Of a DNA stretch of 39,962 nucleotides, positions 1-34,100 are shown piece by piece. Each line of letters opens with the position of its first letter. Positions within the stretch are counted from its first letter, which is position 1. Source of the DNA: a virus; IMG/VR virus record IMGVR_UViG_3300027719_000285, positions 1 through 39,962 of that record; one strand, written 5' to 3'. The position numbers were made by a program, and so were the translations under genes. Below the pieces are notes generated by a model. The model saw nothing but the letters and a program-made list of their open reading frames with translations. It was not told the origin of the DNA and searched no databases.

Positions 1-1197
1 ATGCCGAGAATAGCTATCCCCCTTTCAGATACTAAAATCCGTACCGCCAAACCTTTATCGAAAGATTACAAGCTCTCTGATGGTGAGGGTTTGCACCTGC
101 TTGTTACAACGAAGGGAAGCAAGTTGTGGAGGATGCAGTACCGCTTCGAGGGTAAACAGAAAACGTTGAGCTTCGGCAAGTATCCGTATATCAGCCTGGC
201 CGATGCCAGAAAGTTGAGAGAGGTGGCGAAACGGCAGCTTTTGAAAGGGGTTGATCCCATGGTTGATAAGGTGCTGGAGGTGCCTGAAAATGACAAGGTA
301 AAGCTTTTTCAGATTGTAGCTGAGGAGTGGCTTGAGAAGCAGTTTCCGGTATGGTCGGTGCGTCATGCGCAAACGACGAAACTGAGGCTTTTCAACGATG
401 TGTTTCCGCATATAGGGCAAATGCCAATCGATGGGATAAAGCCTGCAGACGTGCTTGTTGTGATGCGGTTAATAGAGGAGCGTGGCGCGATTGTGAAGGC
501 GCACAAGATTAAGATCATTATCGGACAGATATGTCGGTACGCTGTGGTTACCGGACGGGCAGAGTATGATCCGACTGCTTCGATCAGAAGTAGCGAGGTT
601 TTGACAAAGCACAAGGTGCGGCATCTTGGGGCAATAACTGATCCGAAAGAGTTCGGGGCGTTACTTCGGGCTATCGATGGTTTTTCCGGTACGTTCACTG
701 TGCGTTCCGCCTTGCTGTTGTCTCCTCTTGTTTTTGTTCGACCTGGTGAGCTGCGGCACATGGAGTGGACGGAGGTTGACATCGAGGCGGGAATCTGGAC
801 CATATCGGCAGGAAAAATGAAGATGGGGCATGATCATGTTGTTCCGTTGTCACGGCAGGCGAAGGAAATTCTGTCGGGGATGGTTCCTGTTACCGGCCAT
901 CTGCAGTATGTTTTCCCTGGGCTTTCTCCAAGGCGTCCGATGAGCATGAACGCGATTACCGGTGCACTCAGAAGGCTCGGGTATGATGGCGAAACGATGA
1001 CGGCTCACGGCTTTCGAGCTTCTGCACGAACGATGCTGGATGAGGTGCTCAGGTTTCGTGTTGACCTTATTGAGCATCAGTTGGCCCATACGGTACGGGA
1101 TGCTCTTGGCAGGGCGTACAATCGCACCAGTTTTCTCGATGACAGGCGCGAGATGATGCAGGCCTGGGCGGATTACTTGGATGGGTTGAAGGTTTAG
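1..1197 (+). CDS. int: Tyrosine-type prophage integrase (DUF4102 arm-binding domain)
   Basis: A 398-residue site-specific recombinase that would insert and excise the phage by recombining attP with attB. The N-terminal part (about 1-85) has the arm-DNA-binding DUF4102 look (LSDGEGLHLLV, FGKYPYISLADAR). The catalytic domain carries a full tyrosine-recombinase set: R247 (FVRPGELR), H336-x-x-R339 (HGFRASAR), H363 (LAHT) and the nucleophile Y373 (RAYNR). Length is normal for P4-type integrases and it looks intact. The frame starts on the first base of the window, so its ribosome-binding site and any left attachment site lie outside. It reads toward the phage body, as usual for an int gene at a prophage end. 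The AlpA-like gene at 7296 is the candidate excision partner. Confidence 0.95.
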   Translation: MPRIAIPLSDTKIRTAKPLSKDYKLSDGEGLHLLVTTKGSKLWRMQYRFEGKQKTLSFGKYPYISLADARKLREVAKRQLLKGVDPMVDKVLEVPENDKVKLFQIVAEEWLEKQFPVWSVRHAQTTKLRLFNDVFPHIGQMPIDGIKPADVLVVMRLIEERGAIVKAHKIKIIIGQICRYAVVTGRAEYDPTASIRSSEVLTKHKVRHLGAITDPKEFGALLRAIDGFSGTFTVRSALLLSPLVFVRPGELRHMEWTEVDIEAGIWTISAGKMKMGHDHVVPLSRQAKEILSGMVPVTGHLQYVFPGLSPRRPMSMNAITGALRRLGYDGETMTAHGFRASARTMLDEVLRFRVDLIEHQLAHTVRDALGRAYNRTSFLDDRREMMQAWADYLDGLKV

Positions 1198-1250
1198 GTT
1201 TTCATTGGTATAGTTCCGTTAATCAGAATGAGGTATATGCCCCTTTTCTT

Positions 1251-1327
1251 GGGCGAGAGTCCCCAGTAAGTTGGCGTGCTTACTTTGGAGGGGAGCAATT
1301 TAAACGTAGTACACTGAGAGATTGCTC
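1251..1327. other. Structured intergenic stretch after the integrase
   Basis: The 195-base gap between integrase and methyltransferase has several consecutive dyads: GGG/CCC (1251-1253 with 1261-1263), AGTAAG/CTTACT (1265-1270 with 1279-1284), and GAGCAAT/ATTGCTC (1293-1299 with 1321-1327). No T-tract follows, so it is not a clear terminator. It could be a small structured RNA, integrase arm sites or chance. No tRNA or obvious attachment core was recognised. Confidence 0.25.
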
Positions 1328-1392
1328 ACTGATTTATTATTAGCTATCTTGTTAATTAGAATTTCGTTATGTAAAAATGGGATAGACAAATA

Positions 1393-2352
1393 ATGACAGG
1401 TTTAACTTCTCTTGAAATATGCTCTGGAGCTGGTGGTCAAGCTTTGGGAATGGAGTTGGCTGGGTTTCAGCATCTTGGCTTAGTGGAGATTGAGCCTGCT
1501 GCTTGTAGAACGCTTCGCATGAACCGTCCGGAGTGGAATATAATTGAAGGAGACTTGCACCATTTTGATGGTACTCCATTCAAAGGGATTGATTTACTTG
1601 CCGGAGGAGTTCCCTGTCCGCCGTTTTCACGAGCAGGAAAGCAGCTTGGCAGTGAAGATGAAAGAGACCTCTTTCCTCAAGCTATTCGCCTTGTAGATGA
1701 ATGCCGTCCGAAAGCTGTTATGCTTGAAAACGTTCGGGGTCTCCTCGATGCTGTTTTTGACGATTACCGCAATAAAGTTGAGCATCAACTGGAAAAGCTC
1801 GGATACAAACCTGGTTGGCGGCTTCTGAACGCTTCGGATTACGGTGTTTCACAGCTTAGGCCTCGGGTTGTGTTTGTTGGCATAAAGAAAGAATTATCAG
1901 AACATTTTGTTTGGCCAGAACCCAGGCAAGATTCACCACCAACCGTAGGACGTCTTCTATATGATCTGATGAAGGAAAACGGCTGGAAAGGAGCTGATGA
2001 ATGGCGCGAACAAGCCAACAGTATAGCGCCAACGCTTGTTGGAGGGTCCAAAAAACATGGCGGCCCTGATCTTGGCCCCACCCGAGCAAAAAAGGCATGG
2101 GCAGCCCTTGGTGTTGACGGTCACGGACTTTCGGATGAAGCTCCTGAGGCTGATTTTATAGGAATGCCAAGATTGACGACACGCATGACTGCCAGAATTC
2201 AAGGATTTCCGGACTCTTGGGTGTTTTCTGGTAGAAAAACACCGGCATACCGACAGATTGGGAATGCCTTTCCACCTCTGGTAGCAAAAGCTGTTGCTGA
2301 GAAGATCAGTTTTTGCCTAACCAGTAAAAAAGTATTTTCACTCGCCGTTTAA
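1393..2352 (+). CDS. C5 cytosine DNA methyltransferase
   Basis: A 319-residue DNA (cytosine-5) methyltransferase that transfers a methyl group from S-adenosylmethionine to cytosine in a specific DNA site. Conserved blocks are visible in order: motif I (CSGAGGQALG, near 10-20), motif IV with catalytic Cys75 (GGVPCPPFSRAG), motif VI E112-N-V, motif VIII (SQLRPRVVFVG), a short target-recognition region (about 190-270), and motifs IX-X (RIQGFPDSW, QIGNAFPPLVAKAVAEKI). The enzyme looks complete. The HNH endonuclease gene follows after 10 bases, so the two look like a type II restriction-modification pair. It could also methylate phage DNA to evade host restriction. The recognition sequence cannot be read from the protein. 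Confidence 0.93.
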   Translation: MTGLTSLEICSGAGGQALGMELAGFQHLGLVEIEPAACRTLRMNRPEWNIIEGDLHHFDGTPFKGIDLLAGGVPCPPFSRAGKQLGSEDERDLFPQAIRLVDECRPKAVMLENVRGLLDAVFDDYRNKVEHQLEKLGYKPGWRLLNASDYGVSQLRPRVVFVGIKKELSEHFVWPEPRQDSPPTVGRLLYDLMKENGWKGADEWREQANSIAPTLVGGSKKHGGPDLGPTRAKKAWAALGVDGHGLSDEAPEADFIGMPRLTTRMTARIQGFPDSWVFSGRKTPAYRQIGNAFPPLVAKAVAEKISFCLTSKKVFSLAV

Positions 2353-2362
2353 ATGATTTTAT

Positions 2363-2953
2363 ATGGCCAATTCTGAAGGAGCACGGGCAAAATTAAGAGT
2401 GCATTTTCTTGCTAACATTGGCAGGGTTATGGATTCTGATGAGTTGCGGTTAATAGCCGGAGGAATAACCGAATGGGCAAGAAGAGTACGAGAACTACGT
2501 AATGAAGAAGGGTATCAGATTCTAACCCACAATGACCGGAGTGATCTGAAGCCAGGTCAGTATTTGCTTGAAACTCCTACGCCTCGGCCTGCTTTTGAGC
2601 GATCCATTTCAAAAGAGACAAGAGCGTTTGTTCTCGACCGTAATGGCTTTACATGTCAGATGTGCGGAGCTGTAGCAGGAGAACCTCATCCATACGATCC
2701 CACCAGAAAAACCAGATTACATATCGGACATATAGTAGACAAATCCATGGGTGGTACTGATGATCCTTCAAACCTTAGGGCTTTGTGTTCCGTTTGTAAC
2801 GAAGGGGCAGCTAATCTAACCTTGGAGCGTCCATCTGCGGAAAAACTTCTTATCCAGATCCGGAGATCAAAAGGCGGGGACCAGATTGAGGTTCTAAAGT
2901 GGTTGATTCGAAAGTATCCCGAGCAGAGTAAAACAATTTTGAATGACCGATAA
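2363..2953 (+). CDS. HNH endonuclease, probable restriction enzyme
   Basis: A 196-residue protein with a C-terminal Cys4-framed HNH nuclease fold. Visible are C98-x2-C101 (CQMCG), H120 and H123 (LHIGHIVD), N137 (DPSNLRAL) and C142-x2-C145 (CSVCN), which would hold a structural zinc and the metal-dependent nuclease site. The first 80 residues match nothing I recognise and may recognise DNA. Co-directional coupling with the C5 methyltransferase supports a type II restriction role; a solitary HNH nuclease is the alternative. As a phage-borne pair it would protect the lysogen against incoming DNA lacking the modification. Confidence 0.85.
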   Translation: MANSEGARAKLRVHFLANIGRVMDSDELRLIAGGITEWARRVRELRNEEGYQILTHNDRSDLKPGQYLLETPTPRPAFERSISKETRAFVLDRNGFTCQMCGAVAGEPHPYDPTRKTRLHIGHIVDKSMGGTDDPSNLRALCSVCNEGAANLTLERPSAEKLLIQIRRSKGGDQIEVLKWLIRKYPEQSKTILNDR

Positions 2954-3137
2954 GTTTTCTTCTGAAGAAATAAGCAAAAATAGTGAACGATGCTGAAAAT
3001 TTGAGTTGTAAGATCTGTGGCTTTTTGAATCCTGAATAGACCCAACCAAAGCTTTATATGCTTTTCTTTGATAACTGATATGCTTATATTAAGCATTTAG
3101 TTATAGGAAATCTCAACCTTCCAGAACTGAACAAAAG

Positions 3138-3434
3138 ATGATAAAAGAAAGTCTTAATGATGCACTCAGGGATCTAATCGATCAGTATGATAATGATATC
3201 GAAAAGACGGTCTATGATGTTATTGATGAGTCGGAGCGTCTCGCGGAGGAATATGGAGATACTGCCTTGGCGGAAGCTGTTGCAAAAATCCGTTTTGAGC
3301 AGAAACAAGAGTTGATGATGTGGGGGATCCGAGGAGACTTGGACTCGGCTGAGGAGAACTTCCTTGAAGCCGTCAGGGATATGGCAGCAAGAAAGTCTCC
3401 TGAAATACTGTTGCCAGAGAAAAAAAAAAGCTGA
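3138..3434 (+). CDS. Hypothetical protein, 98 aa, acidic helical
   Basis: I do not recognise a family. The 98-residue product is acidic, predicted largely helical, and ends in a Lys-rich tail (PEKKKS). It lies 184 bases after the HNH gene and directly before the CRISPR leader, on the same strand. No signal peptide, membrane segment or Cys motif is visible. It has no resemblance that I can see to Cas1, Cas2 or another CRISPR protein. It could be an accessory gene of the restriction module or an independent moron. Confidence 0.6.
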   Translation: MIKESLNDALRDLIDQYDNDIEKTVYDVIDESERLAEEYGDTALAEAVAKIRFEQKQELMMWGIRGDLDSAEENFLEAVRDMAARKSPEILLPEKKKS

Positions 3435-3674
3435 TTGGATACTTTGCTTCCATTAAGGGTGTTAATATAGTGTAACTCTTTAAAGTGTATAGATTTGCCA
3501 TGTTATCACATAAATGTTGAGCCTTCGATGTTGTATATCTCATTTCTTTTCCGTAAGATACAAGTGTTGTTTTGTGGTAAAATCAGATCATTGTCCTTTG
3601 ATATTGCTGATTTTTGAGTGAGCCTTCGATTTTGCGCCAGGAGCCCTTACCAGTCAAGGGTTTTCAGGGGTACC
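3435..3674 (+). promoter_or_regulatory. Probable CRISPR leader
   Basis: An AT-rich, gene-free 240-base stretch directly before the first repeat. It has a 16-base direct repeat with one mismatch (TGAGCCTTCGATGTTG at 3518-3533 and TGAGCCTTCGATTTTG at 3619-3634), 101 bases apart. Position and composition fit a leader, and the degenerate repeat lies at the opposite end of the array, as expected if the leader is on the left. Confidence 0.6.
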
Positions 3675-4079
3675 CTTTATATCTTATTGCACTCATTGAG
3701 GATTGAAACCATGAATCATTATCAAATATAGATTCTACCATACCATCAACTTTATATCTTATTGCACTCATTGAGGATTGAAACTAACCCAATATATTCT
3801 TCTCGATCTGGGCTTTTCGATCTTTATATCTTATTGCACTCATTGAGGATTGAAACCATGCTTCCTCCTTGTGCTTTTCGATGAGTTCTTCCGCCTTTAT
3901 ATCTTATTGCACTCATTGAGGATTGAAACTCAAGACTTGTTTCTTCAACATGCCATTCCATCCCTGCTTCTTTATATCTTATTGCACTCATTGAGGATTG
4001 AAACGCAGTGCCTGAGATATTCGGCAGTGCTGAAGACGACGCTTTATATCTTATTGCACTCATTGAGGCTCCATGAAAC
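3675..4079 (+). CRISPR. CRISPR array, 6 repeats and 5 spacers, no cas genes
   Basis: Five identical 35-base repeats start with CTTTATATCTTATTGCACTC and end with ATTGAGGATTGAAAC; they lie at 3675-3709, 3750-3784, 3822-3856, 3895-3929 and 3970-4004. A sixth begins at 4042, matches for 27 bases to 4068 and then diverges, with GAAAC recovered at 4075-4079. Spacers are 40, 37, 38, 40 and 37 bases (3710-3749, 3785-3821, 3857-3894, 3930-3969, 4005-4041) and all differ. The GATTGAAAC end is typical of type I and type III repeats and gives the crRNA 5' tag. No cas gene is in the window, so Cas proteins would have to come from the host. By eye none of the spacers matches the rest of the window. Confidence 0.95.
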
Positions 4080-4082
4080 ACG

Positions 4083-4109
4083 AAAGCCCGGCACATCACC
4101 GGGCTTTTT
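4083..4109 (+). terminator. Intrinsic terminator after the CRISPR array
   Basis: A 9-bp perfect stem AAAGCCCGG / CCGGGCTTT (4083-4091 with 4099-4107), a 7-base loop and a short T-run. It starts four bases after the degenerate last repeat and would end the pre-crRNA. Confidence 0.85.
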
Positions 4110-4231
4110 ATTTGCACCTTTCATTCACAATTATTTCTCCTCCTTTCCGAATCCCGATAACTTTCCGTACCTTTACCGTAATATGCAGTATCCCGAGTAG
4201 TACCCCGTTGCTAACCCTAAGCCTCTCGGAT

Positions 4232-4474
4232 ATGAATGTTAAACGCCCCCGGCGCCTGTTTTTCGCTCTGGTTGCTCTGGCCGCCCTTATCGCTTCTCTG
4301 AACGGTTCTGCCCAGCTGCAAGCAGGTATGGGATACCACGGCAACACCAACACGTTGAAGTTCCATGAACCCAGCTGTCGATATTACAACTGTCCGCATT
4401 GCACGGCTGTGTTCAAGACCAGGCAGGACGCTATCGATGCGGGGTATGTGCCGTGTGGGGTGTGCAGGCCGTGA
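4232..4474 (+). CDS. Small exported protein with Ada-like Cys motif
   Basis: An 80-residue product starting at the ATG at 4232; an upstream in-frame start would run into the terminator. Residues 4-8 are basic (KRPRR), 9-23 are hydrophobic, and a signal-peptidase-like site follows (GSAQ), so it is probably exported. The mature part holds five cysteines, C49, C54, C57, C75 and C78, in a pattern (HEPSCRYYNCPHC, AGYVPCGVCRP) that resembles the metal-binding Ada N-terminal fold often attached to nucleases. No nuclease domain is present. It is preceded by the array terminator and stands alone, as expected of a moron expressed from the lysogen. The function is unknown. Confidence 0.7.
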   Translation: MNVKRPRRLFFALVALAALIASLNGSAQLQAGMGYHGNTNTLKFHEPSCRYYNCPHCTAVFKTRQDAIDAGYVPCGVCRP

Positions 4475-4532
4475 GAGTTTTTAGATTAAAAGCGAAAAAA
4501 TCCTATCGATGAGCTTTTATAGATATTAGAAA

Positions 4533-4799
4533 ATGCAATGTCAGGGATTAACAAAATCAGGTAACCCTTGCCGTAATCAAGCTACTGCTAATGGTTACTG
4601 TTATCGCCATGGAGGGATTCCTACACGACAAGCGTCTCGTAAGGAATTTGAGAAAAGTTATGCAGCTATGACTCCAGAGCAGCGTTCGGAGCATAACTCT
4701 TTTACGATGGGGTGCTTGTTAGTAGTTATTCTGTTGGCTTTGATTTATGGTGCTATTACTGGGGATTGGAGTGGTGTTGGTAAATGGTTAAGTAGATAA
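4533..4799 (+). CDS. Small Cys/His motif protein with one membrane helix
   Basis: An 88-residue protein. The N-terminus has a compact C3-x9-C13-x9-C23-x2-H26 pattern (CQGLTKSGNPC, GYCYRHGG), like the short CxG-T-K-G-x-PC zinc-binding modules found in many phage and bacterial small proteins. A linker of about 30 residues leads to one hydrophobic helix (about 57-77, GCLLVVILLALIYGA) near the C-terminus, so it is likely anchored in the inner membrane with the Cys/His module on one face. It sits among other short moron-type genes. The function is unknown. Confidence 0.65.
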   Translation: MQCQGLTKSGNPCRNQATANGYCYRHGGIPTRQASRKEFEKSYAAMTPEQRSEHNSFTMGCLLVVILLALIYGAITGDWSGVGKWLSR

Positions 4800-4873
4800 A
4801 TGAACTGGAGAGACTTATGATGTTGATATGGAGTAGGCGGTTGGTTAATTAGTAAATAAAACAAGGAGGAGTT

Positions 4874-5059
4874 ATGAGTCAGTTTAATTCGGAAAGCAAC
4901 GATGATCTCAGACAGAGGATAGCTCAAATTAATGAGATCATCGAACATCTAAAAAACTGGATTGAAAGGGACTCCTGTATGCCTCAAGTATTAATTGATG
5001 GAGCAGTAAGCCTGATTGAAAAAGCAGAAATAGAAAAAAAAATGCTTATGGATAAGTAA
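4874..5059 (+). CDS. Hypothetical protein, 61 aa
   Basis: A short, charged, helical protein of unknown function. The start is well supported by a strong ribosome-binding site, AAGGAGGA, about seven bases before the ATG. No Cys motif or membrane segment is visible. A rightward terminator-like hairpin follows within 45 bases (5102-5126). Confidence 0.6.
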   Translation: MSQFNSESNDDLRQRIAQINEIIEHLKNWIERDSCMPQVLIDGAVSLIEKAEIEKKMLMDK

Positions 5060-5100
5060 AATATAAAGATTGGATATTGCAGATGGTGAGATGAATTTCC

Positions 5101-5217
5101 AAAAGCCCAGATATGCAACGGGCTTTGGCATTTCTGGGGTATTCAGGGGTGTTGGTGAGGTTCGGAGCCGTGTAGTACCTGGATCCGGCTGCACCTGCAG
5201 GGGTGACCACTACTCCT
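5101..5217. repeat. Convergent-terminator block, copy A
   Basis: A block of about 115 bases beginning with the hairpin AAAGCCC/GGGCTTT (5102-5108 with 5120-5126) and running to the 3' end of a leftward repressor scrap. It aligns along its whole length with copy B at 5760-5873, about three quarters identical by eye, including shared cores GCCGTGT, ATCCGGC and GCACCTGC. The hairpin would end the rightward gene at 4874. Confidence 0.7.
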
Positions 5218-5260
5218 TCTCTCTCTTCTTCTCCTCAATCTCCTCCATGATCAGCTGGAG
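5210..5260 (-). pseudogene. 3' scrap of a repressor gene (duplicate of the end of 6610-6966)
   Basis: On the minus strand this encodes the last residues of an XRE repressor-like protein (LQLIMEEIEEKKREKE then a stop). These match the end of the intact repressor (VQLIMEEIEEQKKEKE). Bases 5213-5263 and 6613-6663 agree at about 46 of 51 positions. No further homology to the repressor is seen upstream, so it is a remnant left by duplication or recombination. Confidence 0.75.
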
Positions 5261-5450
5261 AGCGAATTATCTTCGTGGTATGCGGATATCGGGAAATCTA
5301 AAACACGTCATTCTCAAGGAAAAGTGTTTGTGAGTTGTCGGCATGGAAGGTATATTGATGTTGCTTAGGATCAACAACCAAGCTGTTTTTTGGGCCGTCC
5401 GAAATGTTGGCGCATTTCTGGCGGCCTCTTTATTTCAAAATACTTCAGCT

Positions 5451-5729
5451 ATGAACCCTATTCAAAAGATTGTTCTCTCGATCTATGCAGGAATCATTTT
5501 CCTTATGACGCTGTTCCCCCCGTTTTACGCGGAGATGCCCGGAAGTAACATTGTGTTTTACACGGGATATGGGCCTATATTCGCTTCGCACACGCCGGTT
5601 TATAACGGACGCGTGCTGAACATTGCGGCTCAGATTGACGGGGATAAGCTGTTTTTGCAGTACATGGGGGCTACGCTGATCACGATTGCGATGATTTTTT
5701 TGTTCAGTAGCGGGAATGGTGATGACTGA
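5451..5729 (+). CDS. Small two-helix membrane protein
   Basis: A 92-residue protein from the ATG at 5451 (MNPIQKIVLS). Two hydrophobic segments are clear: an N-terminal one (about 4-26, ending FLMTLFPPFY) and a C-terminal one (about 68-86, LITIAMIFLF), with a polar loop of about 40 residues between them. I recall small bacterial proteins of this FPP-plus-two-helix type but know no function. The frame extends upstream; ATG 5358 has a better ribosome-binding site (GGAAGG seven bases before), but the extra 31 residues do not look like part of the protein. It is followed by terminator block B and is a candidate moron. Confidence 0.6.
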   Translation: MNPIQKIVLSIYAGIIFLMTLFPPFYAEMPGSNIVFYTGYGPIFASHTPVYNGRVLNIAAQIDGDKLFLQYMGATLITIAMIFLFSSGNGDD

Positions 5730-5759
5730 TAAGTTCGGTATAAATTTTTCACAACATTC

Positions 5760-5873
5760 AAAGCCCAGCCATGCGCCGGGCTTCTGTGTTTCGGGGTATT
5801 CCGAGGTATTGATGGGGTTTGGTGCCGTGTTGTACCAGAATCCGGCCGCACCTGCCGGGAGTGAACGTTACTC
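5760..5873. repeat. Convergent-terminator block, copy B
   Basis: The second copy of the block at 5101-5217, starting with the stem AAGCCC/GGGCTT (5761-5766 with 5778-5783) and ending at the stop codon of the leftward membrane-protein gene. In both copies the block joins the 3' end of a rightward gene to the 3' end of a leftward one. Confidence 0.7.
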
Positions 5874-6479
5874 TATATCTTTGTTTTGTTCCTTATTTTT
5901 GACGGTTGTTCTTAGTATTGCTTCTCTGACGCTTCTGAGTCGTATATCAGATATGAATCCAGAGAGTATAAGAATACATGCGACGCATAATAATAATGAT
6001 ATGTAAATATTCTGAATATCAGGGAATGGTTCGGACTGCTTTATAAAATAAATTATATGTGCAAGTAAACCTAATAAAATGCCCCACCCTGAAGTGTATG
6101 ATGAATGTGTATTATCACCCCATTCTTTTGTCTTTTCAAATAAGCCTGTGAGATTATCAGTATCTTCATTATTGTCTAATTTCCAAATTGAAATTAGATA
6201 GTCTGTCGTTTTTTTGCTTATAAAAATATGTCTTGTTTTATTTGAGGAGAAAATAAGTGTTATTGCGTATTCAAAAATAGGATATAAAATGCATCTGTGA
6301 AGTACATAAATATATGCGCCTATTAAAATAGAGCTAATTAGATAAGCGGTTATGTTTTCAATTAAATACTGCACAGGATTTATTTCTGATGCTAATTGAA
6401 ACGAAAAAATTGTAAATGCACCTCCAAATAAATTTCGCAGTAATATGCTTTTGTTGAGGTTTTTTATGAAATTATCCAT
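5868..6479 (-). CDS. Leftward multi-pass membrane protein of unknown function
   Basis: A 203-residue protein with about four membrane segments: near 15-32, 44-66 (YLISSILIGAYIYVLH), 130-150 (GILLGLLAHIIYFI) and 158-178 (ISLLLCVACILILSG). A polar central stretch (70-125) and a basic C-terminus flank them. I do not recognise a family. The gene is clearly more AT-rich than the phage core, which points to recent acquisition. It lies downstream of the repressor on the same strand, so it is probably expressed in the lysogen. That position suits a superinfection-exclusion or conversion protein, but this is inference only. Confidence 0.7.
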   Translation of the reverse strand: MDNFIKNLNKSILLRNLFGGAFTIFSFQLASEINPVQYLIENITAYLISSILIGAYIYVLHRCILYPIFEYAITLIFSSNKTRHIFISKKTTDYLISIWKLDNNEDTDNLTGLFEKTKEWGDNTHSSYTSGWGILLGLLAHIIYFIKQSEPFPDIQNIYISLLLCVACILILSGFISDIRLRSVREAILRTTVKNKEQNKDIE

Positions 6480-6966: not shown

Positions 6967-7004
6967 AAAAGACTTGTTTGTGTGGTCAAAAAAGACTATT
7001 GTTT
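6962..7004 (+). promoter_or_regulatory. Operator pair and rightward early promoter
   Basis: Two similar sites, GGTCATAAAAGACTTGTTT (from 6961) and a copy from 6984, each contain a GTC-N6-GAC dyad (6962-6973 and 6985-6996), 23 bases apart. A sigma70-like promoter reads right: TTGTTT (6974-6979), 17-base spacer, TATTGT (6997-7002). The second dyad fills the spacer, and the first overlaps the repressor start codon. Binding would shut the early operon and limit repressor synthesis. Confidence 0.6.
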
Positions 7005-7041
7005 AACTGTGACATCAATAAGACGAAGATAAGACAATCCA

Positions 7042-7308
7042 ATGACGAATAATCACAGCCCAAAGAGACGAACGTTTCTCCAGGACATCTGGCCGGAGGT
7101 TACTGCGAGTGTCAACAAAGAGTATGCGCTTTCGTTGAGCGTGGGTGCTGCCCGTAAGCGGTACTACCGTGGAGACGTCAGGGTGGCCAGAGCATACAAG
7201 GCCGCTCTTGAAAATCGTACTCAAACCGAACAACAGAACACAGAAGAGTTTCAAAAGATTCAACGTGAAATAAAGGCAATTGTAACCAATAAACCATGTG
7301 CATCGTGA
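7042..7308 (+). CDS. First early-operon protein, 88 aa, unknown
   Basis: A basic 88-residue protein at the Cro-like position, the first gene right of the divergent promoter. Residues 20-60 (SVNKEYALSLSVGAARKRYYRGDVRVARAYKAAL) look helical and basic and could bind DNA, but I cannot name a fold. Its end overlaps the start of the AlpA-like gene by 13 bases, so the two are probably translationally coupled. A role as early regulator is inferred from position only. Confidence 0.65.
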   Translation: MTNNHSPKRRTFLQDIWPEVTASVNKEYALSLSVGAARKRYYRGDVRVARAYKAALENRTQTEQQNTEEFQKIQREIKAIVTNKPCAS

Positions 7309-7553
7309 AAGAAGTAACACAAGAGGCTCCTCCAAGGCGGTTTTACCGCTTGAAAGAGATCATTGGAGACCGGAAGTCCGGGATCCCCCCGATTATTCCG
7401 GTATGTCGGTCGGTATGGTATGCGGGCATCAAGAAGGGTGTTTATCCGAAACCGGTAAGGCTTTCGGAGCGGACAACTGCCTGGAAGTCAACGGACATTG
7501 ACAAGCTGACGAAGCAGTTGTCGGGTGAAGAAGAAGGAGAAATGACGCCATGA
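7296..7553 (+). CDS. AlpA-family regulator / excisionase-like protein
   Basis: An 85-residue winged-helix protein of the AlpA type, small phage and island regulators that bind DNA near integrase sites and act as excisionases or integrase activators. The typical pieces are present: FYRLKEIIG (start of the helix-turn-helix), VCRSVWYAGIKKGVYPKPVRL (recognition helix and wing) and RTTAWKSTDIDKL (closing helix). The first 10 residues overlap the previous gene; a GTG at 7302 is an alternative start. It overlaps the next gene by four bases (ATGA). Confidence 0.75.
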   Translation: MCIVKEVTQEAPPRRFYRLKEIIGDRKSGIPPIIPVCRSVWYAGIKKGVYPKPVRLSERTTAWKSTDIDKLTKQLSGEEEGEMTP

Positions 7554-24236: not shown

Positions 24237-25139
24237 ATGACAATGCCGCTCGTACAGCAGATAATCCCGCAGCAGGGGCAGCTTATAGATGCCGCTCCTG
24301 TCGCGAACCTCATTTCCGGGTATAAGAAGAAGCTGAAAGACGACAAGAAAAATGAGCTTCGAAACCAGATTGCAGCCGGTGACGAGAAGGCTACCAGACA
24401 GTTCATAACGCTTGACCCCGAGGAGGGGAAACGAATTGTCGATGCTTTCGGGGCTATGGACGAGAACGAGAGGAAGTCAACCTCTTCACAGATTGACAAG
24501 GTTGGCCGTATCGCGCATTACGTCCTGAGTGGAGGAGATGATAATGAGAGGGCTCAGCGATATTCGTATGCTCGCCAGAACTCGGAGTCTGAGATTACCG
24601 GAGAGATGCCGGAGCAGTATGACCCGAATTTCGTGCAGTACCATCTTTCAAGAGCTACTGAAATAAAGGAGTTACTGGAAAATCCGGAGGTGAAAACCAT
24701 CGGAGGGTATGATGTTGCATACAAGAACGGTCAGCCGATCAGCAAACCAGTACCAGGTATAAACCTGATTAAGATGAATAACGATAATACTCAGGCAGGT
24801 CTGGATCGATCGAACAAGATTACGCTGAAAGGCATGGAGGGTGATGACGGCAATGGTGTGCCGAAGTCGGCAGATGAATCGCTGATGTACCGGCAATCTG
24901 CGGCTTTATTTGGCGGTACTTTTGACCAAGCTGGCAACCTTATCACTCTCGATCCTACAGCAAGGCCAAAGGTACAGGCCATTGCAACGGAAGCAGCGAA
25001 GCTCTTTTCTTCCGGTAAGTATTCCCGTTCTGAGGCTGTAACCAGGGCGGCCAAAAAGTACGGTGTGAATGTAGGCGGCGGAGCGCAGAAGCCTGGTGCT
25101 CCGGCAGCAGGGAATAATCCGGTTAAACCTTTCATGTGA
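24237..25139 (+). CDS. Probable ejection/virion protein, 300 aa
   Basis: A 300-residue protein in the position of P22 gp20, between the gp7-like protein and the last ejection protein. It has a charged helical N-terminal half (SGYKKKLKDDKKNELRNQI, IVDAFGAMDENERK), a middle segment (GGYDVAYKNGQPIS) and a low-complexity Gly/Pro tail (VNVGGGAQKPGAPAAG). The C-terminal residues 255-280 (SSGKYSRSEAVTRAAKKYG) recur in phage internal proteins. The role is inferred from position. Confidence 0.6.
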   Translation: MTMPLVQQIIPQQGQLIDAAPVANLISGYKKKLKDDKKNELRNQIAAGDEKATRQFITLDPEEGKRIVDAFGAMDENERKSTSSQIDKVGRIAHYVLSGGDDNERAQRYSYARQNSESEITGEMPEQYDPNFVQYHLSRATEIKELLENPEVKTIGGYDVAYKNGQPISKPVPGINLIKMNNDNTQAGLDRSNKITLKGMEGDDGNGVPKSADESLMYRQSAALFGGTFDQAGNLITLDPTARPKVQAIATEAAKLFSSGKYSRSEAVTRAAKKYGVNVGGGAQKPGAPAAGNNPVKPFM

Positions 25140-25146
25140 CAGCGAA

Positions 25147-28100
25147 ATGGAAAAAGTTCAGGAGCTTTATGCCTACCTGAAAGGGTATGGTGCGCTCAGT
25201 GATTCAGTGACGGCTGAGCAGTTTTCGAAGGAAATGGGGAGTAAAGGACGCAGAGAGCAGCTTCACTCCTATATGCAGCAGAACGGCTTCTTGACGAAAG
25301 AGGCCGATTTTGTTTCGTTCGATAGGACGCTTGGTTCCCGCGATATGACGTTTGGGGAGAACATGCGTCATGTCGGCGGCAAGATCAAGGAATTTGCGGA
25401 TTCCGTAGTCGATCCTGACAAGATTGAGAAGCGGGATATGGAACAGGATTTGAAAGCTGTTGCTGATGTTGCGAAGAAAGCTCCCGGCTTTGTCCGTGAT
25501 TCAGCTATGGCCGGGTTATATAACGCCAGTGCCGGCACAGTGGGCGCTGTACGGGGTGTTGTCGAGCCGCTGAACCGATACGTTGCAAAGCCTATCTATG
25601 AAGCCGTAACCGGTCAGCCTGGTGCAGATACGGACAAAATTTCTCAAGCACTTACTGATTACCAGCAATCCATACAGCAGAGTTCTGATGCCGTGATGCC
25701 GGAGGATCAAACCGGTATTGCAAGCGGCATCGCTTCGACAGCACAGATGGGCGCGAACTTGCCGTTGCTTGTGATGAATCCTGCAGCCGGGCTCGGCATG
25801 ATGGGTGCGCAGACAGCAGGTTCGGCTTATGGCGATGCGAGAGAGCAAGGTGCTGAGCCGGGACAGGCTTTTGTGCATGGCGTTTCTCAGGGAGCTATCG
25901 AGGTCGCTACCGAGAAAATCCCGGTCATGAAGTTGCTTGGAGACCTGAAACAGAATTCCGGGTTTCTCAAGACAGTCGTGAACCAGCTCAAATCAGAGCT
26001 TCCGCAAGAGCAGTATGCTACCATCCTTCAAGACCTGAACGATTGGGCGACTCTAAACCCTGAGAAGCCATTCTCCGCATATCTCGCTGAACGTCCTTCA
26101 GCAGCCGGTCAAACCGCTGTTGCAACGATTGTCGCTACAGGCTTAATGTCTGGGGCTGCCACTGGCGCGAATAGGATTATTCAAGGATCACCTGAGCGGC
26201 AGGTTGCCGGGGCTATCGATCAGCAGGTTGATCAGTCGGCTCAATCCGGGACGATGCTGGACAGGCTTCTTGAAACCGCTATTGCCGGCCAGCCTCAGTC
26301 GCAGGTACGGCAGGCTCCCGTGCAGCGTGAAAGCATGGCGGAGAAGCTTGCGAAGCGTGGTGTGGTACTGAATGGCGGTGCAAGGGGATTCGATCAGGCG
26401 GTTGTCCAGCAGGAGAGCAGCGGGAACCCGAACGCGGTGAACAAGCTCTCTGGGGCTACCGGCCAGTACCAGATCATGCCAGTTTTCCTGAAGGAGGGCA
26501 ATCAGCTTCTCGGTACGAACTATTCCATGCAGGATATGAAGAATCCTGCAAAGGCAGAGCAGGTAAAGAATGCGGTGCATGGGCTGTGGATCAGGCAGTT
26601 CCAGCGTAAGAACGGCAGGCTGCCGAGTGCCGAGGAAATGGCAATGATGCACCATGGTGGGCCGCAGGGGTATCTGAGACCTGAAGTAAAGGATGCTCAC
26701 GGTATCAGTAATGCGGAGTATGCCCGGCAGGTTGTTGCCCGTATGGGTCAGCCTGGAGGGATGCCGTCAGCTGTTCCTACAGCACAAGCTGAACCGGTAG
26801 CGTTGCCGGAAGCTCCAGAACTTCCAGGAATGGATATGGTTGGCGACCAGCTTCCTGGCATGGGATACCAGCAGGACAGTCAGGTTTCGGCAAATTTGCC
26901 TGAAACATCCGAAAACTCCAGTGTTTCCGTATCTAAACCAGCGGTAAATTTACCTGAAGTTCCGCAGGAATCGGAGCAACAGTCGCAGGAGGCGACAGCG
27001 ACGGTTGAGCCAGTTCAGCCCGATCAAGTTCCCGAAGCCGGGAAAACGATTGAGGCGAAAGCCGAGAAGAGAGAGATGTGGCAAGTACCGAGAGAGGTGT
27101 ATGTGGATTATTGGGCTGATACTAAAGGAAAGCCGTCATTAATCTCGAATGCAAGACGCCGCCACAGGGAGCTTGTTGAAAAAGCGATTGCCGAAGGCAA
27201 GCAGGTTCCTTCGGAAGTTCTCGCAGATTATCCTGAGTTGCAGCCAAAAGTGAGGCCGGAAGATTTGCCCTCTACCTCCACATGGAGAGAGGAGTCTATT
27301 GATCTTCCTGTGTGGGAAAACGAAAAGCAGGGGAGAAAGACCAATCAGACCTTTACGGGAAAAGCTCTTGGTGATTATGTCGTATTTGAAGAAGGGTCGC
27401 TGGGCAAGATGAACGTGACACATCTTCCGTCAAGAATTACTTTTGGAAAATTCCTGCCAGGCGAAGCATTTGCATTGACTCGCAAGCTTGCGGCCATGAA
27501 AAACAGATGGATACCGGAAGAACCCGGAAAAATGGGGCAGATGAGTGACCCACTGTTCAAGGCATTTTATGAGGAATCAAAAGCGGTGATGGTGTCTTTT
27601 CGTGAAGAATATGCCAAACAGCAAGCTGAACGAGCAAAAAAGCGGGAGGAGACAAAAGATCAGAAGCGATCAGTATTTCAGGGAGAGACAGATCCGGAAG
27701 TCATTGCTCAGGATTATGCGAAATTGCTTGATCAGCCGGTTCGCGATTTCCACCGCGATATAGGTAGAGCTATCGTTGAAAAGGATGCTGATAAGCTTAT
27801 TGCTCTTATCGGCCAGGCAAAAGGGGCAAACAAGAACACAGAGAAGATATTCACCAAGTACACGGGTGTAAAGATGCCGAGCCGAATTGCTGACAGAAGG
27901 CAGGCGATCCGCGAGTGGGCGGAATCAGGGACAAAACCAGAGAGCGAAGTGCGGGGGGCTGAAGCGGAGGCAACTGAACAAGAATCGAAACATTATCAGG
28001 CCAAGACAAACGCACCTGTTTATGACAGTTCTCCTGACCGGATGCTTAATGATCAGGTATGGGTAAGGTATACCGGAAATGAGAAAGATGGCGTTTCGCA

Positions 28101-31100
28101 AGACGGGAAGAATGTTGCGCAGTATGAAGTTGAAGTGATACGATCAGATTCTCCGAATCTTGAAAAGGGATGGAAGGTTTTTGTTGTGATTGACAGGACA
28201 AAACTCAAAACCGTTCCTCCGTTATGGAAATATGAAGAATCAGAAAGAATACAGGAAAAACCAGTACCTTCAACAAAGGAGAGCCCTGAACCAACAAAAA
28301 AGGACAGCAATGCCACAACTGAGCGCTTGGGCGAGTCAAGCAAAGAACCACTGGCGGGAGTTCCAGCCGACACGGTACAAGAGCCTGAAGGAGGCCGGAA
28401 CATTGGACGAAGTGGCGATGTTATCAGCGGAACTGACCGAAAGAGAGATGGACAAGCTGACGGAAGCCGGGTACCAGGAACACGAAGCGTGGGAAATGGT
28501 GAGGGAGCGGTATCTGTTCCCGCCGGAAGAGGAGAGCCTTCGGAAGAAGTGGGACAAGGAGCCGGCAGCGAGTTCGTTCGGGGAGATGTTCAATCTGGCG
28601 ATGCAGATCCAAAGCGAGATGCTCCAGCGGGAGATCGATCCGGAGACAGGGGAAGAACTGCCACCAATAGAGGAGATGGACGTCAGGTAGAGGCTCAGGA
28701 ACAAGCCGCAGAGGAGAGCAAGCCGCCGGCAACCACTCACAGACCGGCGGTGAAGGCTTCAGAGGTACCCGTCGAGATGTTCACCATTACCGACGCTGTC
28801 AGGATCGGGGAAGGTGGAGCGAAAACCAAGTTCAATAATAACATTGCTGCTATCAGGCTTTTGAAAAGGCTTGAGGCTGAAGGCCGTCTGGCGACACGGG
28901 ACGAGCAGGGGATTCTTGCGCTCTACGTTGGGTGGGGCGGTATTCCGCAGGCGTTTTACAAGCCGGATGGATCGGTTACGAAGGGATGGGAGGATGCGGC
29001 TAAAGAGCTTAAGGGTTCGCTGTCTGATGCTGAATATGAGGCTGCCAGGCGTTCGACGCAGGATGCGCATTACACCAGCAGGAGCGTGGTGAACGGTATA
29101 TGGGCGGCTGTCCGGCAGTTCGGGTTTACTGGGGGGCGTGTTCTGGAACCTTCGGTTGGAACCGGTAATTTCCTTGGCCTTATGCCTGTCGATCTTCGAG
29201 CAGGCAGCCAGATTACCGCTGTTGAGCTTGATACCATTACCGGAGCAATTGCGAAGCATCTTTATCCCGTGGCGAACATCCATGCGCCGATGGGGTTTCA
29301 AGATGCGGGCATTGCTGATAACCGGTTCGATGTTGCCATAGGGAACCCGCCGTTCGGTGACCAGAAGCTCTACGATAAGAAGCGGAAGCACCTCAACAAG
29401 TTCAGCATCCACAATTATTTCTTTGCCAAGAGCGTGGATGCCTTGCGCCCTAATGGGGTGCTGGCGATGGTTGTTTCGAGTCGCCTGATGGATTCCGGAA
29501 AAGACCAGGCGAGAAAGTATATCGCTGACCGGACGGAGTTTCTTGGAGCTATCCGGCTGCCGAACAATGCCTTCCTGAAGAATGCCGGCACGGAGGTAAC
29601 GACAGACATTATTTTCCTCCGGAAGCTGGCTGATAGCGAGGTTCCTGCCGATAACCAGCCGTGGCTTGAAACGGTCATGGTGAAGGACAAGAAGGATATC
29701 GAGATTCCACTGAACCGCTATTTTACCGATAACTCCGATATGATGCTTGGCGAGTGGGGTGCATTCGGGTCCATGTATGGCCCGAATGAACCGGCACTCG
29801 TTGCCCGTGCAGGACAGGATACCGAGAAGCTGCTTGCTGAGGCTATCGGAAAACTGCCGAAGAACATCATGGGCGCATCCGGCGCTCCAGTTACGCGCGA
29901 AACGGTGGTAAAGCAGGACGGTATGGATATGGCTGGCGTGAAGGACGAGAGCATGTTCATCCATGACGGCACAGTGTATCGTAAGACCTTCGACCCAGAT
30001 TCGTTGAAGCATATTGCTGAACGGGTAGGCTTTTCGAACAAGAAGGCTGAGGATCGGGTAAAGGGCATGGTTGCTCTCCGTGATGCTTTTACTGCACTGA
30101 GGGTTGCGCAGCTCGATGAGCATACCGAAGAAAAGCAGGTTGAGTTTCTTCGGCAGAAGCTCAATACGATTTATGACCGGTTCGTTAAGGAGAACGGGCC
30201 GATAAACAGCCAGGCTAACAAAATTTTGTTCCGGCAGGATCCGAGCTGGCCGCAGGTTTCAGCTCTTGAGGAGAGCTTCGACAAGGGGATTTCCACTGCC
30301 GTTGCCAAAACCACTGGAGAGAAGTCAAGAACGCCATCGGCAAAGAAAGCGGCCATCTTTTTCAAGAGAACACAGTCGCCGTATAAGCCTGTCACGACGG
30401 CTGCGACGGCGAAGGATGCGCTTTCGGCTTCGCTTTCGGAGTTCGGCCGTATCAATTTCGAGCGGATGAGCGCCTTGTACGGCAAGTCACAGGCGGAGAT
30501 GATCAACGAGCTTGGTTCACTGGTGTTCGAGGATCCTGTTTCCGGATGGGTAACGCGGGACGAGTACCTTTCCGGTAACGTGAAGCGGAAGCTTGCCCAG
30601 GCGCGGGATGCGGGGAAACAGGATTCACGGTTCGACCGGAATGTTGAGGAGCTGAAAGAGGTGATTCCGGCGGATGTCGAGGCTGTCGATATTGTCGTTC
30701 GCCTTGGCGGCCACTGGATACCTACGTCCGACATGTCGGAGTTTGCCGCTCATCTCACAGGAAACCTACGTGCAAAAGCTTCGTATGATGCTATTTCGGC
30801 AAAGTGGTCGTTCTCGGAATCCCATCCTTCTGATGCAGCGCAGGCTGAGTTTGGCACTGCCAGGAAATATGCTGATTCCATTCTTGAGGCGGTAGCCAAC
30901 AGCAAGCAGATTGTTGTAAATGACAAGGATGCCGACGGAAAATCGTTTGTGAACAAAGCAGAAACCGCTGCCGCCAACGATAAGGCCGAACGGATTAAGG
31001 AGCGGTTTGCTTCGTGGGTGTGGCAGTCGGATGAGCGCAGGGAGCGGCTTGCGAAGCTGTATAATGACACGTTCAATACTGACCGGCAGCGGGAGTATGA

Positions 31101-34100
31101 TGGTTCGCACTTGTCGTTTCCCGGTAAAATCTCTGATGACATTGTGAAGCTGAGGCCGCACCAGGCTAACGCGGTGTGGCGATGCCTGCAGGGCGGGACG
31201 ACGCTTCTGGATCATGTCGTTGGTGCCGGGAAGACCTTTACCATGATTGCAACAGCCATGGAGATGCGCCGGATGGGACTTGCGAAGAAACCTGTTTTCA
31301 CGGTGCCTAACCATCTCGTTGGGCAGTGGGCAGCTGATTTCATCAAGCTCTACCCTGGGGCGAATATCCTCGCAGCAACAAAACAGGATTTCGAAGCACA
31401 GAACCGGAAACGGTTTTTCTCTCGTATAGCTACTGGCGATTGGGATGCTGTTGTTGTTGCTCACAGTTCGTTCAAGCTGCTTGCAAGCAGTCCGGAGTTC
31501 GAGCTTGAGTTCATTGAAATGCAGATTCGGGATATCGAGATTTCAATCAAAAATTTGCGGGAAGCCGACGGGAAGGATTCGAGGAGCGTCAAGCAGCAGG
31601 AAAAGCAGCGTGACAAACTGAGGGCGAAGTTGCAGAGGACATTGGATTCCGGTTCGAAGGATGACAACCTGAACTTTGCTGAACTTGGCATCGATGCCCT
31701 GTTTGTCGATGAGGCCCATGAGTTCAAGAACCTCTCGTTCTCAACGTCCATGACAAGAGTTGGTGGACTGAATCCAGCAGGAAGCCAACGGGCAGCTGAT
31801 TTGTTCTCAAAAGTCATGTTCATACAACGGTTGACCGGCGGGCGAAATGTGGTGTTCGCTACTGGGACTCCGATCAGTAACACCATGGCGGAGATGTACA
31901 CGATGCAGCGGTACCTGCAGTACGGAACGATGCAGGATCAGGGGGTTGCGCATTTCGACGCATGGGCGCGCATGTACGGCGAGGTGGTGTCTGATTGGGA
32001 GCTTTCACCTGCAGGAAAGTATGTGATGCGGAGCAGGTTCTCCCGGTTTGTGAATATTCCGGAGCTGATGCAACAGTACCTCTCGTTTGCCGATGTGATT
32101 TCGCGCGACGACATTAACCGCCAGTTGGCCGTGCAGGGGAAAAAACTACCTGTTCCAGAGATGGTTACAGGGAAGCCAGTGAACGTAGTTGTTGAGCGGA
32201 GTGTAGACCAAGCCGATTATATCGGAGAGCCAACAAAGGACAAGAACGGGAAAGAGGTTTATCCTGAGCATAGCTTGGTTTTCCGTTCGGAGAATCTGCC
32301 AAAGAGGCCGGGGAAAGGCGATGATAACATGTTGGTTATCATGGGGCTTGCCCGTAAGGCCGCGCTTGACATGCGACTGATTGATACGGCATATCCCGAT
32401 GATTCGGGTTCAAAGGTGAATGAAGCTGCCCGCAGGATCAAGGAGCAGTATGACCAGTGGGATCATGTGAGAGGAACTCAGCTTGTTTTTTGTGATCTCA
32501 GCACTCCGTCGAAAGCAAGAGGAAAAGAGGCATCGAGGATTGGTGAGTTGTTGCGCCGTGCTGACGAGGGTGATGAAGATGCGATTGTCGAGCTTGACAA
32601 GATCGATCCGGATGAGTTGGCGGCACTTGATTCGAAGTTCAGTGTTTACGATGACTTGAAGGCGAAGCTGATAAATATGGGGATCAAGGAGAACGAGGTT
32701 GCTTTTATCCATGATGCCAATACAGAGCAGCAGAAGGAGGATTTGTTTGGCAAGGTTCGTTCTGGCCGCATTCGGGTTCTGATGGGTTCGACGCAAAAGA
32801 TGGGTGCCGGTATGAATGTTCAAGAGCGGCTTGTTGCTCTGCACCATCTGGATGCGCCATGGAGACCGTCAGATCTTGAACAGCGTGAGGGGCGCATTAT
32901 CCGCCAGGGAAACCAGCTCTATGATGCCGATCCGGAAGGGTTTCGGGTGTTCGTTGGGAGGTATGCGACAAAGAATACTCTGGACAGTCGGATGTGGCAG
33001 ACTATCGAGACGAAAGCCAGGTTCATCGAGCAGATCAAGAAGGGGGGAACATCTGAACGTGTTATCGAGGATATTGGCGGCGAGGCAGCCAATGCGGCTG
33101 AGATGAAGGCGGCGGCCAGCGGAAACCCGCTGATTCTTGAGGAGATGACGTTGCGCCAGAAGGTACAGAAACTGAACCAGCAGAAAACGAATCATGATCG
33201 GGAGCAGCACCGGATTAAGGATACGATCCGGATCAAGAAGAAAGCTCTTGTGCGAATGGATGGGGAGCTTCCTGAACTGAAAGAGGATGCAGAGACTGCG
33301 GCTCATATAGGGCAGGAGTTTGCGATGAAGGTCGGAAAGAAGGTGTTCGATAAGCGGCAGGAAGCCGGAGAGACTCTTGTTGCTGTGGCAAAAAAGATCG
33401 ATTCAGCAAAACCGGTAGTAATTGGCACTATCGGCGGTTTTTCGATTACGGTTCATACGAATGACCTTGGGCATAACAAGCTGTCGGTTTCAGGAAAGAA
33501 TCTCCATACTGCTAAAAGTGACGTTGATTTAACTTCGGATGACTTGTCGAAGGAGCAGAAGGGCGGCATTGCTACGCAGATTTTCAATATTGCCCGAACC
33601 GTTCCGGGGAAAGAATTTGAAGCGACGCGCTCAGAGGTTAAAAGGATCGAGAAGGATATTCCCGCGCTTGAAAAGCAGATCCGCGCGTGGGAAAATGAAA
33701 AGGAGCTTGTCGAAATCAAGAAACGGCATGCAGCAGTAATCAGGGAGCTGCAGCCGGAAAGCGATAGACAGGAGCAAGCGAAGGGAGGGGGCGACGCCGG
33801 CGTTTCCGCTATGGCAGAATTGTCACCGATGCCGGGATGGGTTCCGCCGTTATCGGTTGCGGGATTCCCGGAACGGCCTGAGAGCGGCAAGGTGAAAATC
33901 GGTGACAGGACGGTCGAGCTTCCCCCGGAGGATAAGCCGGTTCGTATCGAGCAGATCAGGCTCATGGCGGAACAGCTTATCGGGCGAGGGCTCTACTTCG
34001 GCAAGATCAAGCTGAAGGGAACAGCGGGCTTTCATCGCCGGAAGATCGGCGAGGTTCGCATGGCGAATTACAACGATGTAGAGACGCTTGCTCACGAGAT

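Follow-up and report, generated by a model that had tools for sequence, protein, structure and literature searches.

A TnpV-like gene nested in the +1 phase of a giant polyvalent phage gene

A complete small gene of 126 codons lies inside, and out of phase with, the giant polyvalent gene of a viral DNA of 39,962 nucleotides (IMG/VR record IMGVR_UViG_3300027719_000285, positions 1 to 39,962; the whole of this stretch is called the window here). A preliminary description had taken this ORF, with its start codon and ribosome-binding site, for a gene, and it proved to be a real one, since its phase, start and Shine-Dalgarno sequence are conserved in dozens of phages. The best explanation of the observations is that one message region gives two proteins, and we regard it as quite probable. 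Ribosomes on the giant gene would read positions 28309-28686 as a disordered Gly/Arg/Asp-rich linker, which would join the N-terminal transglycosylase part to the methylase-helicase-LPD38 part. Other ribosomes would start independently at the ATG at 28310 behind AAGGA and make a TnpV-like helical protein of 126 aa. Only the small frame would then be under selection at the amino-acid level; in the giant frame selection would do no more than keep stop codons out. The evidence on the small gene presented below (conservation, phase, start signal, selection and relatives) suggests that the small protein is expressed.

The nested gene and its host gene

The features of the window that concern the overlap are the following.

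25096..37137, + strand: giant polyvalent gene (DarB-like / PLxRFG), its longest ORF encoding 4013 aa (Pfam domains; similarity to VvAW1)
26398..26556, + strand: SLT lytic transglycosylase domain, upstream of the nested gene (Pfam PF01464, E 5.3e-6)
28300..28304, + strand: AAGGA Shine-Dalgarno core, 5 nt 5' of the nested ATG (sequence; comparison with homologous starts)
28309..28686, + strand: giant-frame segment over the nested gene, a low-complexity linker, neutral but kept open (dNN/dNS 1.15; probability of being open near 0 for the nested protein of the window under its own codon usage)
28310..28690, + strand: nested gene, 126-codon TnpV-like ORF (P0001) in +1 phase (phase-conserved homologues, own start and Shine-Dalgarno sequence, dNN/dSN 0.24)
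29311..29553, + strand: core of the Eco57I / N6-adenine methylase domain, downstream of the nested gene (Pfam PF07669, E 1.1e-12)
31195..31737, + strand: SNF2-type helicase domain of the giant protein (Pfam PF00176 / PF04851)
36253..36711, + strand: LPD38 large polyvalent protein-associated domain (Pfam PF18857, E 7.4e-33)

The giant protein is polyvalent in that SLT, Eco57I/N6_Mtase, SNF2 and LPD38 domains are found in one phage polypeptide. It resembles in these domains the known polyvalent or DarB-like proteins (Iyer et al. 2017, PMC5512222; Bcep22 gp75 family), and its methylase region is 62% identical to that of Vibrio phage VvAW1, where the CDS is annotated as DarB-like antirestriction. 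The window also carries P22-type portal and coat genes. A further likeness is presence in the virion: the homologue of the giant protein in phage JC1 (gp69) is a virion protein by mass spectrometry, with 51 unique peptides, and DarB of P1 belongs to a multi-protein system and shields DNA against type I restriction (PMC9144972). Unlike the polyvalent proteins as described in PMC5512222, the text of which contains neither "TnpV" nor "overlap", the gene studied here has a second protein-coding gene inside it.

The nested ORF runs from the ATG at 28310 to the stop codon at 28688-28690 and is read in the +1 phase with respect to the giant ORF (25096-37137). It is thus complete inside another ORF, in a different phase and with a start signal of its own, and its frame is under selection at the amino-acid level (dNN/dSN 0.24, 0.20-0.29), as an embedded gene should be. 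The giant frame over it had been described as a linker without domain features, and this was borne out: a Pfam search of this segment gave no match, and G/R/D/E/S/A/P make up 79% of the linker (median over 72 loci).

Start signals and conservation of the arrangement

The length of an ORF is by itself weak evidence for a nested gene, and conservation is what makes a nested gene real. ORFs of at least 75 aa starting with ATG are common in these giant genes, occurring about 0.56 times per kb in frames +1 and +2, so a frame opened by chance through the codon bias of the giant gene, and coding for nothing, had to be considered. The probability of such a chance frame is negligible, however, and the substitution pattern and the start signals refute it: the nested frame is under selection and the giant frame is not, a Shine-Dalgarno core precedes nearly all starts, and the mean column identity of 41% across 43 diverse members is that of a conserved protein. 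Moreover, some homologues are not nested at all, and there are relatives in Pfam TnpV.

Start signals were analysed in 73 non-redundant nested copies, a core being at least four bases of the Shine-Dalgarno sequence 3-13 nt upstream. The start codon at the first residue of the family was ATG in 67 copies and GTG in six. A core was present before 72 of the 73 starts, compared with 16% of 6488 control ATGs in the +1 frame of the same giant genes, and five-base cores before 59% of the nested starts, compared with 2.9% of the controls. Start position, +1 phase and Shine-Dalgarno sequence are all conserved across the nested copies.

The homologue search that had been suggested for the 126-residue product was carried out with tblastn, and 21 INPHARED records were matched, representing 11 distinct phages (less than 60% identity), with E down to 6e-19. 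All these matches fell in the giant-gene region and none was annotated as a separate gene. The named phages with a homologue belong to or are Pavtokvirus, Lastavirus, Ittyvirus, Namazuvirus, Roslyckyvirus, VvAW1, PBC5 and a Microcystis phage. Nine phages have the giant CDS annotated and intact, and in each of them the phase worked out from the deposited coordinates was +1 for every match. In Pseudomonas phage Itty13 the match is +1 as well, within a giant frame that is open. The giant gene of Itty13 (L003) is itself unannotated, long ORFs of the opposite strand being annotated in its place.

A profile built from the 11 sequences led to 71 IMG/VR loci, which are partly redundant, and 22 genome contigs; distinct sequences were counted once. 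Among the resulting 86 distinct homologues from named phages, IMG/VR and bacterial genomes, 76 lay in the +1 phase inside a long frame (at least 400 aa); contig ends cut two, and eight were not nested. The nested gene was annotated in none of the records carrying a gene table. All 11 phages in which the methylase domain is at least 52% identical possess the nested gene, and the identities of the nested and methylase sequences are correlated (Mantel rho 0.67, 0 of 999 permutations), which argues that the pair was inherited together. The family is rare in sampled bacterial genomes (3/399 and 1/369), and a search of the PLSDB plasmids with two proteins of the window family gave no match. In a decayed provirus (L013, around 7001-7336) the giant frame is down to about 245 codons, while the nested ORF is still intact together with its ribosome-binding site.

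The start signals also bear on how the small protein could be made. In the deposited record of Sinorhizobium phage PBC5 (L009 / L063, locus 1-6306) a frame shift interrupts the giant gene shortly ahead of the nested gene, so that the N-terminal half continues in the frame of the nested sequence and ends at the nested stop. One could accordingly suppose that programmed frameshifting normally links the nested sequence to the N-terminal half, producing a transglycosylase-TnpV fusion, and that the nested sequence is not made from a start of its own. As a normal route this is very unlikely: the first residue of the family is an ATG or GTG behind a Shine-Dalgarno core in 72 of the 73 copies, in 19 of the 73 an in-frame stop lies no more than 10 codons upstream of the start, leaving a tiny space for a shift, free-standing relatives exist, and the frames are separate in all relatives but PBC5, the single exception. 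Marginally less probable again is translational coupling, in which the nested stop would allow ribosomes to reinitiate and to produce methylase-helicase as a protein by itself. The position of the nested stop in phages, just upstream of the methylase domain, would suit it. On the other hand, giant-frame ATG or GTG codons with a Shine-Dalgarno core are depleted near the nested stop (4/73, against 38/73 in a control stretch), which disfavours such re-initiation, and several Firmicutes elements have hundreds of codons between TnpV and the methylase.

Selection on the two frames

Substitutions were compared in 20 pairs of relatives, each locus being used once (2102 codons), and each difference was classed by its effect in both frames. 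The estimate is our own approximate implementation of the OLGenie logic, with raw difference counts and no correction for multiple hits. The differences fell on the three nested codon positions as 156, 125 and 381. With this method dNN/dSN was 0.24 in the nested frame (95% bootstrap 0.20-0.29), and dNN/dNS of the giant frame over the overlap was 1.15 (0.93-1.43) in the same pairs. Purifying selection is thus confined to the nested frame, and the giant frame over the overlap is neutral. Selection acting only on the giant frame had been named beforehand as the result that would speak against the nested gene, and the opposite was found. The same pattern was seen between the window and its nearest relative (L083, protein 85% identical), with 12, 11 and 27 differences by nested position and 38 of the 50 differences non-synonymous in the giant frame. 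Outside the overlap, pN/pS of the giant frame was 0.40 just upstream and 0.20 and then 0.11 downstream; being constrained on both sides, the giant frame is relaxed only locally.

When each nested protein was reshuffled synonymously under the codon usage of its genome, the giant frame was expected to be open in 3.6 of 73 loci (median chance 1.3%), but as these 73 loci had been chosen as nested, the fair comparison for openness is 76 of 86. The giant frame is open far above the reshuffling expectation, which argues that the bases are selected for the sequence of the small protein and also for the absence of giant-frame stops. The usual direction of overprinting is inverted here: the long annotated protein is passive and the unannotated small protein is under selection.

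The small protein and its kinship with TnpV

An AlphaFold2 model computed with 43 relatives has four helices (residues 2-18, 20-29, 32-52 and 57-68), with pLDDT 89-98 for residues 1-70 and a less certain acidic tail, in agreement with the folded helical protein that had been proposed from amino-acid composition. The net charge of the family is mostly negative (median -6; -13 in the window protein). Searches with the small protein for a fold in the PDB and for a family in NCBIfam gave no match, and the window protein did not match the Pfam TnpV model PF14198 at E up to 5. Nevertheless, 33 of 43 family members matched PF14198 at E up to 1 (best 2.9e-7), and a profile-profile comparison with TnpV was moderate (probability 67%, E 5e-5 over 48 columns), all profile E-values given in this paper being those of single comparisons.

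Like TnpV (PF14198, of Tn4451-type elements), the small protein is helical, of similar size and found in mobile elements, and the core KE-xx-P/R-x-x-Y-x-x-L-x-x-x-G-x-L is common to both. It differs in the place of its gene inside a phage giant gene, and the alignment and the AlphaFold models, of which that of TnpV has low confidence, indicate that the N-terminal strand-rich segment and the C-terminal AEEIV-xx-ELIY motif (AEEIV..ELIY) of TnpV are lacking in the window protein. It is for the latter two differences that the small protein is classed, on sequence comparison, as a probable distant relative of TnpV and not as a member. The TnpV genes of the publications consulted, unlike the nested gene, are free-standing and were described as a possible Xis (PMC3158075).

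PBC5 gp22 ends in TnpV-like sequence owing to the frame shift in its record. Two database matches were set aside in this connection: phrog_938 "endolysin", the only match in PHROGs and located at its C-terminal end, probably comes from the frame-shifted PBC5 protein, and the BFVD match Q8W6J4_2 is probably the PBC5 chimera too.

Nested genes in other phages and in Firmicutes elements

The next-closest methylase-helicase genes, from gut Firmicutes, contain genuine TnpV ORFs with an ATG of their own (E 3e-39 to 1e-6). In all 10 cases examined the true TnpV was in the +1 phase of the homologous methylase-helicase gene, with the long frame open across it.

L117 4995-5336, L118, L119, L120, L122, L128, L109, L111, L112 and L115: true nested TnpV, in +1 phase, in SNF2/methylase-helicase genes of Firmicutes elements

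These nested genes are unannotated in the records with a gene table; one of them lies in a gene of an Enterococcus faecalis plasmid for which the annotation says no more than SNF2-related. Most of the genomes concerned are AT-rich, and chance openness is near zero there. Free-standing TnpV was also found, adjoining tet(O).

Among phages, a nested +1 ORF akin to the window family (profile E 4e-8) is present in Pseudomonas phage USP_18 as well as in two related IMG/VR loci. The Bcep22-like phages DC1, BcepIL02, CSP3 and JC1 also have one, which is related to TnpV at the core and C-terminus (profile E 2.4e-5) and more constrained in its frame than the giant frame; its Shine-Dalgarno sequence is GAAGGAGGT in DC1, BcepIL02 and CSP3, and GAAGGAGGT or a near-identical sequence overall. 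The USP_18-like and Bcep22-like ORFs are like the window gene in place, +1 phase, strong Shine-Dalgarno sequence and nested-frame selection, but they are too diverged from the window protein for direct BLAST, and the Bcep22-like ones, unlike it, keep a TnpV-like C-terminus. Pseudomonas phage 8P (L106 5609-5920) and Pseudoalteromonas phage Y7 (L108 4430-4735) have +1 ORFs just upstream of the methylase domain, for which no sequence link was found; they are possibly diverged or analogous nested genes.

The arrangement is therefore not peculiar to the phage of the window but is an ancient, unannotated overlapping-gene layout across phages and conjugative elements. A more general statement, to which we give an even chance, is that polyvalent methylase-helicase genes have from ancient times generally contained a gene of the TnpV superfamily, nested in the +1 phase, and that this gene predates the split between the versions in proteobacterial/cyanobacterial phages and in Firmicutes conjugative elements. 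Each such gene would then make two proteins, and the linker would exist only through out-of-phase reading of the older gene. In the open-access literature searched, no report of TnpV or another gene nested in polyvalent genes was found.

Origin of the overlap

Of the two coding sequences the small frame is the older, being the one with a fold, with selection and with relatives in a wider family. Free-standing members of that wider family are TnpV and the genes at L084, L086, L087, L093, L102 and L131. An origin of the small protein from an older, wider family, with the linker of the giant protein as a passive by-product of out-of-phase reading, is thus supported. To this extent the preliminary description was correct: the small gene is the older, structured and selected partner with free-standing relatives, and the giant segment is a passive linker. 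It had further suggested that the giant gene arose when flanking ejection and methylase-helicase genes were fused by read-through. Such a fusion is plausible, but the intermediate looked for, a phage with the three separate genes in this order and the small gene free-standing between the ejection-type and methylase-helicase genes, was not found.

The small gene could instead have been inserted as a cassette into an existing giant gene, or have come with an exchanged N-terminal module, an alternative whose probability we place slightly below even. The methylase-helicase relatives lacking TnpV (L110, L113) have different, unrelated N-terminal regions; this indicates that N-terminal modules have been swapped and makes insertion or module exchange equally possible as fusion. 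The free-standing relatives are also mobile. However, no giant gene with an empty site, that is, with the same N-terminal part and no nested gene, was found, and the correlation between nested and methylase identities speaks for long joint inheritance within the phage group.

Function and significance

Because the small protein would be made from inside the message of the giant protein, it is most simply regarded as an accessory of the latter. We tentatively propose, as a possibility somewhat short of even, that it is a small partner produced alongside the virion-associated DarB-like giant, a DNA-protection protein, and that it may act on the giant protein, on DNA or on restriction enzymes during packaging or establishment. 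The partnership is suggested through guilt by association, and free-standing copies occur without the giant gene. Three of these, in bacterial chromosomes, adjoin restriction genes: L093 a McrBC-like gene (PADLOC similarity and our own reading) and a type I methylase, L102 type I HsdM/S/R, and L131 DUF262-type and McrB-like genes. Together with the mostly negative charge of the small proteins and the DarB-like nature of the giant protein, this could mean that the small protein acts on restriction systems, in anti-restriction or restriction control, and is not a partner of the giant protein. We consider this rather unlikely, as only three of about nine free-standing copies are so placed and restriction genes are common in variable islands; moreover, for TnpV of Tn4451 the older suggestion is a Xis-like role in excision (PMC3158075). 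In L093 the relative of the small protein is fused to a membrane segment.

Among phage genes that lie whole within another gene in the +1 phase and have their own start, Rz1 inside Rz, of the phage spanins, is the best known. Embedded spanins are among the subjects of PMC6139136. The window gene is likewise complete, in the +1 phase of its host gene and provided with its own start. Rz1 and Rz are both short, selected lysis partners, whereas here the host frame encodes a protein of 4000 aa and evolves neutrally across the overlap.

In bacteria and their phages, few long nested genes on the same strand show a clear evolutionary signature. Recognition of the nested gene adds a gene that had been missed in many phages and mobile elements and accounts for the linker in polyvalent proteins, and TnpV, a family of unknown function, gains a candidate genetic partner. 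The case shows how a multi-domain giant can extend across a neighbouring gene without destroying that gene.
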